DNA from: a virus
Length of the DNA: 53,116 nucleotides
IMG/VR virus record: IMGVR_UViG_3300048672_000900
Coordinates: 1-53,116 of that record
Strand: one strand, 5' to 3'
A program made the translations under genes and the position numbers. Shown one piece after another: positions 19,084-26,272 of this stretch (the first letter of the stretch is position 1; the number at the start of each line of letters is the position of its first letter). A model generated the notes under the pieces. That model ran no database searches, was not told the origin of the DNA, and worked only from the letters and a program-made list of their open reading frames with translations.

Positions 19084-19485
19084 ATGGCTCAATACCCTGT
19101 CATCGTCAACCAAAGTTACGACTTTGTCTTTCAAGCACCTGCTATTCTCTCGATTGGCATTCAGAATGCTAAGGTGCTCTCAGAGGCGTCCTACAGCATC
19201 GCCAGTCTGATCAACCCAGACTTAGTTGCTCTACATGAACAAGTCAAACCTTACCTGACTGGTGGCGCTAATGATGACGCCACCACGCTCAACTACCTGA
19301 TCCTTCAAACCGTAGAAGGTGAAAAACGAGTGTACGCCATGGACTGGTTGGCTTCTGCTCCGGTGGTTGCTAACTACCACGATGTCAACTTCTACATCAA
19401 GAGCGTGAGCCCTGACAACATCCAGTACATCCGCGACCTGTTGGTGAATGCTGGGTTTACTCAGTTCAGTTATACGCAGGTGTAA
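19084..19485 (+). CDS. Unknown protein ending the small-gene run, 133 aa
   Basis: AGGA lies 8-9 nt before the ATG. The protein has a beta-rich N-terminus (YPVIVNQSYDFVFQAPA), a helical middle and a compact beta-rich C-terminus (FYIKSVSPDNIQYIRDLLVNAGFTQF). There is no signal peptide. Codons are more G/C-ending than in the preceding small genes, which may mean stronger expression. A hairpin of the GGCATA family follows 6 nt after the stop. Confidence 0.7.
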   Translation: MAQYPVIVNQSYDFVFQAPAILSIGIQNAKVLSEASYSIASLINPDLVALHEQVKPYLTGGANDDATTLNYLILQTVEGEKRVYAMDWLASAPVVANYHDVNFYIKSVSPDNIQYIRDLLVNAGFTQFSYTQV

Positions 19486-19491
19486 GAAGGC

Positions 19492-19541
19492 GGCATAAAA
19501 CCACAAGCAGGAGTAGGTATTACACCTACTCCTCTTATGCT
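19492..19541 (+). terminator. GGCATA-family hairpin closing the small-gene run
   Basis: GGCATA (19492-19497) and TATGCT (19536-19541) enclose AGGAGTAGGT/ACCTACTCCT, a 10-bp stem with a 5-nt loop. The tract after it is CTCTTATG, with a stronger T-rich tract at about 19570-19587. It marks the left edge of the gene-free region. Confidence 0.7.
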
Positions 19542-19544
19542 GCA

Positions 19545-20722
19545 ATCCAAATAACCCATGCTGCACGCCTTTTCTTTTTTCTTTTTGTATTGTATGTAAG
19601 GAGTGTGAGAGTTTCTCATACTTTTCACAACCAAGTGTTGAGATGGGTGGTGAGGTGTTTGCTTGAAACACCTCACTAAACTTTATGCGCACTTTGACTG
19701 GCAACGCACAATCAGACCTTTCTTTTGATGTCCTCACGTCAGAGGTGTTGGTTTATCGAGCTGCGTTGGGTTTGACAGCTTGCTTATGAAAAGAGGTCAA
19801 GTGTTTGGTTTTTGCATGTGGGCTGCAAGCGGTCATATGCTTGTGGCTTTTTTGAAGCGACCTTTTATTTTTGGCCCGTGGTGTTTGGAGTCGTTTGTAC
19901 AGCAAGAGTCATGTCTTGTCTCTGTACAGATAAAACAAACGTCCAGTGCTAGCAGCTGTCGGAACTGATCGCCAATACCTTTGGATGGTCTTGAGCTAAA
20001 ATCAGTGAGAGTGCGTGTAACAGGTGGATTGAAAGAATGCCTCACCACCCATCTCAATTGTAGAGGTACCGGTTAATACACACCGCATCAAAAGCAAACC
20101 AAGAAGAGGTAAGAGTATTCATGAGCGCCTAGGCAAATGCGTGGGTGTCACTTGCAAGCGGTTGGTTCGCCTAAGAAGTTGTTTGGTCTGTGGTTGAACA
20201 TGAGTTGTGCACGTTAACAGCAAAAGAGTTAGCCAGATAACAGGTTTGAAAGAGGTATGGAAGTGCGGCAGCTGCATCCAGGGTTGGGATGCCCCTAAGC
20301 AGTTGCAAGCTTATATCCACCTTGACGGTAAGACCTTGGTGAATGTCTGGTGGTGACTTGTCTGACTCGCTCAAGCTGAAGTCGTTTTTGAAGTAGTCAC
20401 AGGGCTTGCCCTGGTCGGTCTGGTGGTAGCCGATGAAAGAGACTTACGGATAAGGCCATTGACGTTGGTAGTGGAGTCAGTTTTCAAATCCTGATGGGTT
20501 TGAAAGCGTGTGTTTCCCTGGTAGTAAATCACAAAAGACCAAGTGGCTTGGATGGCTTGTCATGCCGATCAGCTTGCAGTGGCCAAAAGAAGGGGTTGCG
20601 CTGTTTGCTTCTTTGGGCGCCTCATGGGCTCGAATAGTGCTTTTTGGTTTGTGCGGTGTGTATTTTTATTAGCAAAGGGCTGCTGGCTTTTCTTCGGAAA
20701 GGCTGGCGGCTTCTTTTATGCC
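19545..20722 (+). ncRNA. Candidate large structured non-coding RNA, about 1.2 kb
   Basis: No plausible gene lies here: frames are short, lack ribosome sites and have unphage-like composition (G/T-rich on the plus strand). Fold signals are strong. TTGAGATGGGTGGTGAGG (19638-19655) is perfectly complementary to 20040-20057, an 18-bp stem closing a 384-nt domain. Local hairpins include a 13-bp stem at 19648-19678, a CGTTTGTACAG rod at about 19891-19941, GCAGCTGC/GCAGTTGC enclosing CATCC/GGATG (about 20269-20308), CAGGG/CCCTG at about 20400-20413, and a 10-bp stem with TGAT loop at 20483-20506. The 3' domain is closed by AAAAGAAG/CTTCTTTT and ends in TTTTATGCC. Strand and ends are inferred. An origin or a decayed gene is the main alternative. 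Confidence 0.55.
20581..20722 (+). other. 3' domain of the candidate RNA with UUCG tetraloop
   Basis: GGC-c-AAAAGAAG (20581-20592) pairs with CTTCTTTT-at-GCC (20710-20722). Inside lies GCTTTTC-TTCG-GAAAGGC (20686-20703), a stem capped by a C(UUCG)G tetraloop, which is one of the most stable RNA loops. The right arm TTTTATGCC is the same sequence used at this phage's terminators, so this may be the transcript end. Confidence 0.55.
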
Positions 20723-20782
20723 GTCCTCTTAAAAGACAAGCCTCAGTCATGGGATAGTTGCAACACTAAAGCAAAAAGACTC

Positions 20783-22927
20783 ATGACTGTTGTAGAAGAC
20801 ACCAATCCGTTTGTTCGTCCTGTCAAACAGTACAAGCGTAACTTCAGCCCTGTAAAACACATGGTGGAAGACGCTGCTCGATATTTGAGCATTATGACGG
20901 GAGATGACTATCAAAAGACTTATGCCTATGTTAAAGAAAACGTTTTAAACCCCAAGGGTAAGTTTGCTGTTAAAGATCCAGGCGTGTCCTATTTTCAACG
21001 CATGCCTAATGGGGATAGAGAGAAAAAACAAGCCCCTATTCTTGGGTTTATTAAGGAAGTCATTTCTTCCAATGAGATACTGTCGCCCAGCTGGGTCGGT
21101 TATGTTCACCCCAGCATAGAGCAGTCTATCATCTCTTTGGATACTGAAGAAAAGATACGGCTGCGCAGCGTGGCTAAGAAAGCAATGTTTGCTGCTGAGG
21201 GTCGAGACCCTTATGTCTATGCACTCAAAAAGATCGAGCAAGGTGCTCGCAAGACCAGTAACAACGCGTACTCGGGGGCTACGTGCACACCCAGTACACC
21301 TTTGTTTAATCGCAGCGCGCACACGTCTTTGACAAGTACGTGTCGCTCTACCAGTGCTTCTGGTAATGCCAATAACGAAAAACTGATCGCTGGTAATCGT
21401 CATTATCGCAATTACACGATCACTCTTAATAACATCATATCCATCATCAATCATACTGACTACGCTGAACTCCAGCAGGTGATTGACATCTACGGTATTC
21501 ACTTACCCAGTGTAGATGACATGATGGAATGTATCTTGTACAGCACTCGGTTATACTGGAGAAACTCTAAGTACGAAGCTAAGCTCAGAGATTTAGCTGA
21601 GCATATGACGCCTATACAACGCGCTGCGTTTGTGTACACGGGTGATTTATATCACATCAAGAAACACAACCAGTCTTTAATGCGAGACTTTATTGACAAG
21701 CTCTCGACTCAAGCCTGCGGTTTAACGGATGATCCGTGGCCTATTTTAAAGAAGGCTAACGACGAGTATGTAAATTTGAGCCATCAGATCTGTACAGAGA
21801 TCATGCGCGGCAACGCGAAAGATTACAACCTCATCACACATGAACAGCGTTGTATCGTTGCATCAACTCAGATCCATATTGCTAATACGGTTACAGAGTT
21901 TGGTCCGTTCATTAAAGTCTTCTTTAGAAGTGATAATGTTCCGGCCAGCGTCTCTTATTTCCCTGACAGTATCAGACGGGTTGCCGTCACCAGTGATACT
22001 GATTCGACCATCTTCACTGCCCAAGACTGGGTGATTTGGTTTATGGGCGATATTGACTTTAGCCCTAAAGGAATCTCTGTACAAGCTGCTATTACGTTTC
22101 TAGCGGCTAACACCATCATCCACGTCTTAGCCATGATGAGTGCTAACTTGAACGTGGAAGAAAAGAACATGTTCCGCATTGCCATGAAATCGGAATATCG
22201 TTTTGATGTGTTTGTACCCACTGAGATTGGTAAGACGTACTATGCCACCATTGGTTCTCAAGAAGGTAACATTAAAGCAGAGCCTGAGCGAGAGGTCAAG
22301 GGCGTGCAGCTCAAAAGCTCAAATGCACCTGAACAGCTCAACAAGCTAGCAGGTAAAATGATGAACGACATCATGGATACCGTGCTGGCAAAACAGAAGA
22401 TCAGTATCTTGAAAATACTGACTGAGATTGCTGATATAGAACGCATGGTGATGGCGTCTATCCGTCAAGGCGAGTCAACCTACCTGCGCCGAGGAGGGAT
22501 TAAGAGTCCTGAGAGCTACAGTGCGGGACCTGAAGAAAGTAACTACCAAAACCATACGCTTTGGGAAGCCATCTTCGCACCCAAGTACGGCCGCATCACA
22601 CCCCCACCTTATAACACGGCCAAGATCAGCTTAACCACGCTAGACCATAAACAACTGACTAAATGGATTGAAACGATGCCTGACCGTGAGCTGGCGCAAC
22701 GAGCAGCCGCTTACTTTGCACGCAAGGGGAAAACTGAGTTCACCACGTTTCATGCGCCCATTGAAGTACTTCGCAGTATTGGTGTGCCTGCAGAAATCGA
22801 AATGATCATTAACTACCGCAAGATCGTAGGGGAACTCATGAACTCGTTTAGGCTGGTGTTGGGTTCTTTGGGATTTGATATGTTCTGGAGCGGAGATAAT
22901 CCAGCCCTTATCTCAGATACGTACTGA
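20783..22927 (+). CDS. Family B DNA polymerase, C-terminal catalytic fragment
   Basis: The 714-aa product carries two family B polymerase signatures: motif B as ARKTSNNAYSG near residues 154-164 and motif C as TSDTDSTIF near 402-410, the latter holding catalytic aspartates. Motif A (DxxSLYPS type) and the 3'-5' exonuclease motifs are absent, so it looks like the fingers/palm/thumb part of a split polymerase whose N-terminal partner is encoded elsewhere. The B-to-C spacing of about 240 residues is far longer than usual, implying an insertion or a divergent palm. I chose ATG 20783 (MTVVEDTNPF); the open frame continues 80 codons upstream through structured non-coding sequence. No strong ribosome site was seen. 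Confidence 0.75.
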   Translation: MTVVEDTNPFVRPVKQYKRNFSPVKHMVEDAARYLSIMTGDDYQKTYAYVKENVLNPKGKFAVKDPGVSYFQRMPNGDREKKQAPILGFIKEVISSNEILSPSWVGYVHPSIEQSIISLDTEEKIRLRSVAKKAMFAAEGRDPYVYALKKIEQGARKTSNNAYSGATCTPSTPLFNRSAHTSLTSTCRSTSASGNANNEKLIAGNRHYRNYTITLNNIISIINHTDYAELQQVIDIYGIHLPSVDDMMECILYSTRLYWRNSKYEAKLRDLAEHMTPIQRAAFVYTGDLYHIKKHNQSLMRDFIDKLSTQACGLTDDPWPILKKANDEYVNLSHQICTEIMRGNAKDYNLITHEQRCIVASTQIHIANTVTEFGPFIKVFFRSDNVPASVSYFPDSIRRVAVTSDTDSTIFTAQDWVIWFMGDIDFSPKGISVQAAITFLAANTIIHVLAMMSANLNVEEKNMFRIAMKSEYRFDVFVPTEIGKTYYATIGSQEGNIKAEPEREVKGVQLKSSNAPEQLNKLAGKMMNDIMDTVLAKQKISILKILTEIADIERMVMASIRQGESTYLRRGGIKSPESYSAGPEESNYQNHTLWEAIFAPKYGRITPPPYNTAKISLTTLDHKQLTKWIETMPDRELAQRAAAYFARKGKTEFTTFHAPIEVLRSIGVPAEIEMIINYRKIVGELMNSFRLVLGSLGFDMFWSGDNPALISDTY

Positions 22928-24095: not shown

Positions 24096-24495
24096 AGCGC
24101 CTTTTATAAATCTGATAAACTAAAAAGAATTTGACTACTCAAGTCATTGTTTTTTCATAAACTAATCAATGCTATGGAGATTGAAAACCAATGTCCTCTT
24201 TGAGCGCTATCAACGCTTGAAGAAACCAACTTCTTATGCCCGACTATTGTTGGGGCATATAAAAACAAGATTGCAAAATTGAGTAGTACCTTATTATCTT
24301 CTTGGACTACGACTGCTTTGCTAGTTCTTAAGTTTATTCCAGTGTCGACACTTATTGGAGTAGACGAAGAGAACAAAAGTTGTTGTGGTTCGTTAGCTCT
24401 CAAAGCGTGTCAGGTTAAAAAGTGGAAAAGTATACTTGAGCCACTTACTCTGATCACAGATGCACCTTTGAAAGCATACCACCATCCCTAGCATC
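24096..24495. other. Divergent intergenic region upstream of the 580-aa gene
   Basis: I see no gene in this A/T-rich stretch. It contains a hairpin TATGCCC/GGGGCATA (about 24235-24261, arms in the reverse order of the usual terminator family), the perfect 12-bp palindrome AGTGTCGACACT at 24341-24352, and a TTATTATCTTCT string at about 24291 that recurs before the gene at 29218. It probably holds divergent promoters and a long leader. Confidence 0.4.
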
Positions 24496-24509
24496 TGTTG
24501 ACGTCAACA
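24496..24509. promoter_or_regulatory. 14-bp perfect palindrome TGTTGACGTCAACA
   Basis: The palindrome ends 20 nt before the ATG of the 580-aa gene, just upstream of its AAGGAACC ribosome site. It could be a protein-binding operator or fold as a short mRNA hairpin. The half-site TGTTGAC also appears upstream of the sheath and tube genes. Confidence 0.45.
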
Positions 24510-24529
24510 ACTGTTTCAAGGAACCAACC

Positions 24530-26272
24530 ATGCAAACCATCCACCAAATGATCGGCCTCAGCGGCGCCATGCTGGGCGGCGGCACCTCGCTGCCCGCTCT
24601 GATTGAAAAGATCAAGGCCGCCGGCCTGACGAACGATTTTACGACGTTCGTCCCGCTGGACAACAACAGCAACTTCCCCGGCATTCACTTCAGTGGCATT
24701 GCCGTGGCGAACTTCAACGCCAGCCGCGACACCGCAGCGTACTACGTCTACCTGCTCGAAGACAGCAACCCGACGCCGCTGGAGCCCATCCGCACCTCGA
24801 TCGGCAATGAGCAAGTCGAGATCCCCCGCACCGCCGAGCAAGCCATCGACAGCCGTGCGATGGAACGCGCCAACCAGGCCGTGATCGACGCGCTGCCCAA
24901 GGGCGTCACCTGCATCGCCAGCGGCATGTCGGTCATCGGCACCTCCTTCAACGCCGGCGACCAGACGCAGCTGCGCTACTACGTCAACCTGGCGATGGTG
25001 CAGAACGGCATCGCCATGGTGCGCCTGACCGGCATCGAGCCCACCTTCAGCCTGACGCAAGTCAGGGACGCCAGCAAGGGTCTGGCCTGCAAGATCGAGA
25101 CGGTGAACAACCCGGTCATTCTTGCGGACGGCATCGTCATCGATGCCGGCCAGAAGGTGGTGGTTCGCACTCGCACGCCCAACGCCAAGGAAGGTACCAG
25201 CGCCAACAGCCTCGCGCTGAACTCGGCCGTCACCGACCAAGAACTGGTCACGGTCTACATCAAGACCGAACTGATCGAGGTCCAGCCGGTGCCGGAAATG
25301 GGCCCGATGGGCATGCCGGTGATGAGCAAGAAGTGCTGGGCGCCGCGCATCCACATCACCCACGTGGAATCGCGCACCCAGGCGGGCCTGAGCCTGATCT
25401 GGCTGGCGATCTACGGCGCCACAGAAGTCGCTCGTGACTACAACTGGGCGGTGCCGTTCCTGCCGGTGCGCGACGTGGGCAACACCATCAACCTGCGCGA
25501 GATCGCAGCGCTGAACCTGGTGGCCAAGTACTACGACGGCGGCCAGCTGTTCGACACGCGCTCGCCCAGCTTCACCCTGGCGGAGCTGAAGAACTATCTG
25601 GACGCGGTGATCCAGAACCAACCGCAGATCTGCATCGACGTCATCGGCGGCGTCACCGAGCACATGTGGCTGAGTGCGTTCACGTCGGCGGCCAACGGCA
25701 ACCCCGAAGGTGCTGACCTGACGCAGAAGTCGCTGGCGCAGTTCCTGGGCCATCGCCTGGTGACCAAGGAAAGCGGCCTGGACATGCCGACGGTGCTCGT
25801 CACCGGTAGCGTGGACACGGGCTCGGCCGAAGTGGCCTACTGCGGCGAGTACACCACCAACAGCAACCAGAAGCGCCCGATCACCGAGATCGACTTCTGC
25901 GCTGTGGCGGCGCTCACGAACGGTGATGCTGAAACGCTGCTGGCCTACCAGCAGACGACGATCGCTGCTTCTCACCTGCACGGCACTCAGCGCGCTCACC
26001 GGCGCTTCCGCCTGCATCAGCACCTGCTGCCCACGGCGGTGATCCGGCGCATCCTGCGCACGGTCATCATCCCTGGCGGCACCATCCAGGCCATGCGTGC
26101 GGCCATGGAGCAGATCTGCACCCTGCATCCGGTCGAGATCACCAATCCGCTGGTGAACTCGGTCCCGCAAGTGCAGATGTCGGCTGCGCTGATGCAGCAT
26201 GGTCTGAACCTGTCGACTCTGGGCAACCAGAACCGCGCAGGTGCAGCGTCCTACACCGGCGCCGTCCTGTAA
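24530..26272 (+). CDS. Abundant 580-aa protein; candidate nuclear-shell (chimallin-like) or virion protein
   Basis: This is the most G/C-rich gene of the window, which points to very strong expression. ATG follows AAGGA. The protein has no signal peptide or membrane segment, is mixed alpha/beta, and has an Arg/His-rich patch near residue 490 (HGTQRAHRRFRLHQHLL) and a small-residue tail. In phiKZ the shell protein ChmA (gp54, about 600 aa) lies next to an RNAP subunit gene, and here the next gene is the beta-prime N-terminal RNAP piece. Length, expression and context therefore favour a chimallin-like protein. I could not confirm this from motifs, and a major virion protein remains an equal alternative. 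Confidence 0.6.
   Translation: MQTIHQMIGLSGAMLGGGTSLPALIEKIKAAGLTNDFTTFVPLDNNSNFPGIHFSGIAVANFNASRDTAAYYVYLLEDSNPTPLEPIRTSIGNEQVEIPRTAEQAIDSRAMERANQAVIDALPKGVTCIASGMSVIGTSFNAGDQTQLRYYVNLAMVQNGIAMVRLTGIEPTFSLTQVRDASKGLACKIETVNNPVILADGIVIDAGQKVVVRTRTPNAKEGTSANSLALNSAVTDQELVTVYIKTELIEVQPVPEMGPMGMPVMSKKCWAPRIHITHVESRTQAGLSLIWLAIYGATEVARDYNWAVPFLPVRDVGNTINLREIAALNLVAKYYDGGQLFDTRSPSFTLAELKNYLDAVIQNQPQICIDVIGGVTEHMWLSAFTSAANGNPEGADLTQKSLAQFLGHRLVTKESGLDMPTVLVTGSVDTGSAEVAYCGEYTTNSNQKRPITEIDFCAVAALTNGDAETLLAYQQTTIAASHLHGTQRAHRRFRLHQHLLPTAVIRRILRTVIIPGGTIQAMRAAMEQICTLHPVEITNPLVNSVPQVQMSAALMQHGLNLSTLGNQNRAGAASYTGAVL

Follow-up and report, generated by a model that had tools for sequence, protein, structure and literature searches.

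What is the role of two exactly complementary 18-nt segments, 384 nt apart, in a long gap between two genes of a viral replication block? The window, i.e., the whole stretch of 53,116 nt analyzed here, is a virus record of ~53 kb. It encodes a divergent family-B DNA polymerase and its neighbor SH3DP, together with parts of a multisubunit RNA polymerase and a nuclear shell protein. Because of this combination, we assign it to a phiKZ-like nucleus-forming phage. The complementary segments are housed in a gap of 1,297 nt between the SH3DP gene (end 19485) and the DNA polymerase gene (start 20783). With 18 to 21 stops per forward frame and a longest ATG frame of 77 codons, this gap is of the long non-coding kind found at the same locus in the clade of the window and Burkholderia phage FLC9. 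No tRNA or tmRNA gene was predicted by ARAGORN anywhere in the window. All features are compiled in Table 1.

Table 1. Features of the gap and its surroundings, with window coordinates
Feature	Coordinates	Strand	Details
SH3DP gene (SH3-fold protein associated with phage DNA polymerases)	19084..19485	+	Pfam PF20287, E 3.3e-14
Terminator-like hairpin and TTATGCTG, after the SH3DP gene	19509..19542	+	10-bp helix in MFE; TTATGCTG at 19535
Promoter-like TATTGTATG; predicted start G19596	19588..19596	+	9-mer in 7/41 representative gaps, 0.15 expected
Predicted non-coding RNA, about 1,120 nt	19596..20715	+	strand-specific stability; gap z -7.9
5' hairpin, 12 bp	19599..19625	+	mean pair probability 0.96
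Domain 1, closed by the 24-bp helix that holds the reported 18 bp	19637..20058	+	mean pair probability 0.99
18-bp pairing, arm 1	19638..19655	+	TTGAGATGGGTGGTGAGG
Local hairpin, 13 bp (19648-19660 with 19666-19678)	19648..19678	+	one G-U; -18.8 kcal/mol
18-bp pairing, arm 2	20040..20057	+	complement of arm 1
Domain 2, closed by 12 + 13 bp (20075-20086 with 20653-20664; 20094-20106 with 20640-20652)	20075..20664	+	mean probabilities 0.94, 0.96
Terminator-like 16-bp hairpin (20677-20712), then TTTTATGCCG	20677..20723	+	mean probability 0.93
Divergent family-B DNA polymerase gene, 3' of the gap	20783..22927	+	Pfam PF20286, E 2.2e-234
Nuclear shell protein (chimallin), nucleus-forming phage marker	24530..26272	+	phrog_4795, E 1.2e-26

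Two further observations concern the window outside the gap. An open frame of 570 codons (24488-26200, minus strand) runs antisense to the nuclear shell protein gene; it has no Pfam or PHROG match and is probably not a gene. The window also has ~20 sites, spread over both strands (e.g., 9842/9868, 22944/22970, 50047/50073), where a hairpin is bordered by TTATGC(C/T)G; often the motif stands on either side, forming an inverted pair, and it recurs in relatives. By their sequence, these hairpins look like bidirectional terminators; the TATG inside the motif also matches the phiKZ late promoter element.

The sequence-only reading had described the 18-bp complementarity as exact and as very unlikely to arise by chance, and both statements withstood our searches. 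Allowing up to two mismatches, TTGAGATGGGTGGTGAGG matches the whole window at just two places, 19638-19655 (+) and 20040-20057 (-), with 0.01 matches expected. Of the 25 longest pairs listed for arms that lie within 1,200 nt, it forms the sole perfect inverted repeat of at least 18 bp. It is also the longest inverted repeat in the gap, where 60 dinucleotide shuffles reached 13 bp at most and about 1.2e-5 pairs of 18 bp are expected. In the predicted fold, the helix lengthens to 24 bp (19637-19660 with 20035-20058). The local hairpin that had been said to share the first arm and to end at 19678 is present as described, and the folds agree that hairpin and long helix are mutually exclusive. We conclude that the long 18-bp pairing is very probably a real RNA helix.

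This helix lies between candidate ends of a transcript. The promoter-like TATTGTATG, a short motif, includes TATG and fits the T-3ATG+1 element that the relevant passage of PMC7598289 gives for phiKZ late promoters. Of 41 representative gaps, 17 contain the 9-mer TTTATGCCG of the terminator-like end (0.05 expected), and the window gap, judged by its sequence only, carries both the promoter-like motif and the hairpin with TTTATGCCG. Folding of 19596-20715 yielded an MFE of -439.0 kcal/mol, compared to -303.7 kcal/mol for the opposite strand; this strand difference of 135 contrasts with at most 58 across 40 other window segments. Raw stability alone is not the point, because at least four of these 40 segments fold more stably on some strand than the predicted RNA. 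Compared to shuffled sequences, the whole gap has a z-score of -7.9 (12 shuffles) and an 881-nt part of it one of -4.9 (20 shuffles). The predicted fold comprises 391 pairs, 81 of which are G-U.

We compared the same locus in related viruses, keeping the best 80 of 351 viral relatives from a polymerase alignment search. Of 94 loci examined, 91 had an SH3DP gene that could be located upstream of the polymerase; L052, L072, and L084, the three in which none could be, were dropped before the counts, as were L114 and L116 for the same reason and exact duplicates. Gaps were placed on a quick tree of 86 distinct polymerases, which has open forks and omits the genome-contig loci L112-L119. Using thresholds chosen after inspecting the gaps (240 nt for the gap, 100 codons for a frame), we counted 42 of 52 clade rows with a non-coding gap of 240 nt or more, namely 13 of 19 in the window group and 29 of 33 in the FLC9 group. 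The other 10 rows comprise four short gaps and six with a longer open frame. Elsewhere on the tree, a long non-coding gap is seen in 3 of 30 lineages, and in a neighboring small group none of the four gaps is non-coding, all of them holding frames. Among the 15 cultured phages in the tree, FLC9 (L010) has a gap of 536 nt and the other 14 have gaps of 58-210 nt (201 nt in phiKZ). Since these 14 cultured relatives, phiKZ included, have such short gaps, the gap RNA is not general to the family; rather, a group of giant nucleus-forming phages seems to carry an RNA of ~1.1 kb beside the DNA polymerase gene. Folding z-scores were at or below -3.2 in 43 of 65 gaps (12 shuffles each), with terminators contributing in short gaps; gaps outside 180-1,300 nt were left out of these scores and of the long-helix scoring below. 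The nearest relative, L015, whose polymerase is 55% identical in the best segment, has no alignable RNA. Bacterial genome records (Caballeronia, Paraburkholderia, a Rhodoferax MAG, and others) likewise include polymerases of this phage type, at L112-L119, on contigs 7.6 to 286 kb long, a hint of carrier states or contamination and of hosts within the Burkholderiales.

For each gap, we then scored the best long-range helix (minimum distance between arms, 100 nt) against 100 shuffles. All 100 shuffles were beaten in 8 of 65 gaps, including that of the window, and in 0 of 65 coding segments, related rows not being independent. The window gap, with a score of 57 that none of its 100 shuffles reached, has a closing helix by this measure; most gaps do not. 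In the L057 group (six sequences), a 15-bp closing helix is paired in 90% of cells and 11 of its 15 pairs have changed on both sides. None of 500 shuffles reached its covariation score, and slid versions of this helix pair at 32-59%. In the nine sequences of the FLC9 group, the closing helix is paired in 100% of cells, with 4 of 15 pairs changed on both sides. Both helices are analogous in place to that of the window; their homology to it is something we can only infer, because the gap sequences do not align. Conserved position combined with unalignable sequence could also mean several unrelated RNAs. Individual gaps show further arrangements. At 154-302 of the L068 gap, a 30-bp long-range helix has a 3' arm that is itself a terminator-like hairpin, an attenuator-like geometry. 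In L029 and L073, the first long stem (gap ~39-200) has a U-rich or TTTATGATG run behind it, as well as a promoter-like motif, and these gaps may hold two tandem RNAs.

Sequence motifs connect some gaps but not that of the window. A 5' motif, roughly GGGC..GGCA..UCCGGAUUGC, is common to lineages whose gaps otherwise do not align (L031, L045, L049, L054, L055, L058, L064, L070, L078, and others). Its covariance model R1, a weak one with five pairs, finds its motif in the subclade other than that of the window; in the window itself, the best match has an E-value of 0.14 (20377-20434) and the motif is absent. Outside the training set, R1 detects close kin of the training rows. In genome contigs, its matches are L114 (E 8e-5; the site is ~3 kb ahead of the polymerase), L115 (0.015), and L113 (0.16 and 0.32), as well as L112, whose length and range mark it as the same contig as L044. 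Hairpins with unrelated stems and a pyrimidine loop like UUUCCUCCUUU were observed in the gaps of L049, L051, L055, L059, the FLC9 group, and others. Excluding L050 (3-nt gap), this loop occurs in 13 of 32 gaps in one subclade (shuffled mean 0.7) and in 3 of 19 in the other (mean 0.2). By sequence, the loop resembles an anti-Shine-Dalgarno element, a role that we have considered and keep as a lead. The window gap lacks a pyrimidine-rich hairpin loop, a looser scan returning two weak candidates. Without the R1 motif and the pyrimidine loop, the window therefore shares the locus, the ends, and the architecture, not a demonstrated sequence family. In homology searches, an all-against-all blastn comparison of 76 gaps yielded no link to that of the window, a blastn of the window gap against phages returned only short chance matches, that of the FLC9 gap only itself, and a search with the SH3DP protein no relative. 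Four viral stretches with the 18-mer arm and three with a promoter-plus-start 18-mer were rejected as relatives, as they have no tblastn match to the window polymerase or SH3DP and match the window gap only in pieces of at most 26 nt.

Does the RNA belong to a known class? Rfam 15 at curated scores gave no matches in the window or in 14 related loci, and at E-values up to 10 only five matches, far below curated scores. Rfam includes models for group I and II introns, and none of these matched at either the curated or the permissive setting, nor did any covariance model at curated score point to membership in GOLLD, ROOL, or OLE. According to passages of PMC12286853, the large ornate RNAs GOLLD and ROOL are encoded by phages and prophages and range from about 660 to more than 800 nt. 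The RNA predicted here resembles them in being large, phage-encoded, and very structured; GOLLD, too, has one part that is more conserved than the other. In the same excerpts, GOLLD and ROOL often lie near tRNA islands, whereas the window RNA lies between SH3DP and the DNA polymerase in a window free of tRNAs. OLE is likewise large, ornate, and non-coding, but, as far as those passages go, it is bacterial and a ribonucleoprotein that localizes to the membrane. RNA-only homo-oligomers are a feature of GOLLD, ROOL, and OLE. A further likeness, non-coding RNAs of a nucleus-forming phage, comes from Grad-seq of phiKZ, for which the sections consulted in PMC8545117 describe RNAs that derive from the PHIKZ298 3' UTR and the p40 5' UTR, i.e., from other loci, and are about 100 and 180 nt long. 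In the portions of the open-access literature covered by our search, we found no report of an RNA at the SH3DP-polymerase locus.

The two competing folds had been proposed to indicate a conformational switch or an ordered folding pathway, and here the alternatives part. In folds of growing 5' prefixes, the local hairpin has a mean probability of 0.97-0.99 up to base 20044 and of 0.00 from 20050, while the long helix rises from 0.61 at 20050 to 0.97 at 20057 and 1.00 at full length. Because these prefix folds swap the hairpin for the long helix, an ordered path, with the hairpin forming early and then being displaced, is plausible as a model. A true switch, in which hairpin and long helix alternate with a function of their own, would draw on the same sharp swap and on the strength and exclusiveness of both folds. 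The alternative-fold check nevertheless went against it: in the full transcript the hairpin has a probability of 0, and forcing it costs 9.8 kcal/mol. Moreover, across 17 long helices (that of the window and of 16 relatives), 5' arms do not in general hold more local hairpins than segments drawn at random from the same gaps, with unusually strong ones at only a few arms. We therefore dropped the idea of a conserved competing hairpin; as relatives generally lack it, a functional switch is not supported, and we regard it as very unlikely.

Our preferred explanation, which we consider likely, is that the 18-bp pairing forms the core of the stem that closes the 5' domain in a non-coding RNA of ~1.1 kb, one that stands alone, is highly structured, and is encoded by a nucleus-forming jumbo phage. 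It is backed by computation on several levels: the pairings, the prefix-fold order, the strand-specific stability, the conserved gap position, and the covariation in two groups. In this model, the non-virion RNA polymerase would start the RNA at the TATG-type late promoter (G19596), and transcription would end at the hairpin that immediately precedes the DNA polymerase gene. During synthesis, the 5' strand would first fold into the 13-bp local hairpin, until the emerging second arm pairs with the free bases 19638-19647, displaces the hairpin, and closes domain 1. If transcribed as modeled, the RNA would most likely be not a leader but a trans-acting RNA, either structural or bound to protein, and may serve replication or the phage nucleus. 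Located immediately 5' of the polymerase gene, from which a terminator-like hairpin separates it, the element also fits the description of a cis-acting 5' leader of the attenuator or riboswitch type, whose two folds would decide on terminator formation, and the attenuator-like 30-bp helix of L068 offers a precedent in geometry. We consider such a leader unlikely. An alternative pairing that removes the terminator was not found: the long helix and the terminator hairpin do not overlap, and neither arm touches that hairpin, which in the thermodynamic prediction of the full fold keeps its mean probability of 0.93. In addition, relatives show no enrichment of competing local hairpins, the element is missing from many phages of the family, and 1.1 kb is very long for a 5' leader. 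That the inverted repeats act at the DNA level instead, as cruciform or recombination signals of an origin, packaging, or recombination site, would suit a gap within the replication gene block and a window with palindromic terminator-like sites on both strands elsewhere. A DNA signal, however, would need neither the strong strand specificity of the fold nor its many G-U pairs, and the gap has promoter-like and terminator-like ends; this explanation appears extremely improbable to us.

A stand-alone RNA at this locus would be of interest since nucleus-forming phages have been studied mostly via their proteins; a review of these phages, in the text accessible to us, mentions non-coding RNAs in one passage (PMC13282480). 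The genes on either side, SH3DP and DNA polymerase, are both among the top hits of an antisense screen in phiKZ, according to the part of PMC12571901 that reports it. A large structured RNA between two replication genes would be a specific, testable new component for the field, and with Burkholderia phage FLC9 a cultured carrier of the long gap exists. More tentatively, as a possibility that we rate well below even, these giant structured RNAs may make up a new, fast-evolving class that joins the small number of giant ornate RNAs described so far. Such a class would be fixed within the replication gene block in one large clade of nucleus-forming phages, its fold being conserved and its sequence not, and would act as an RNA scaffold or as a ribonucleoprotein, either of the phage nucleus or of the replication machinery.
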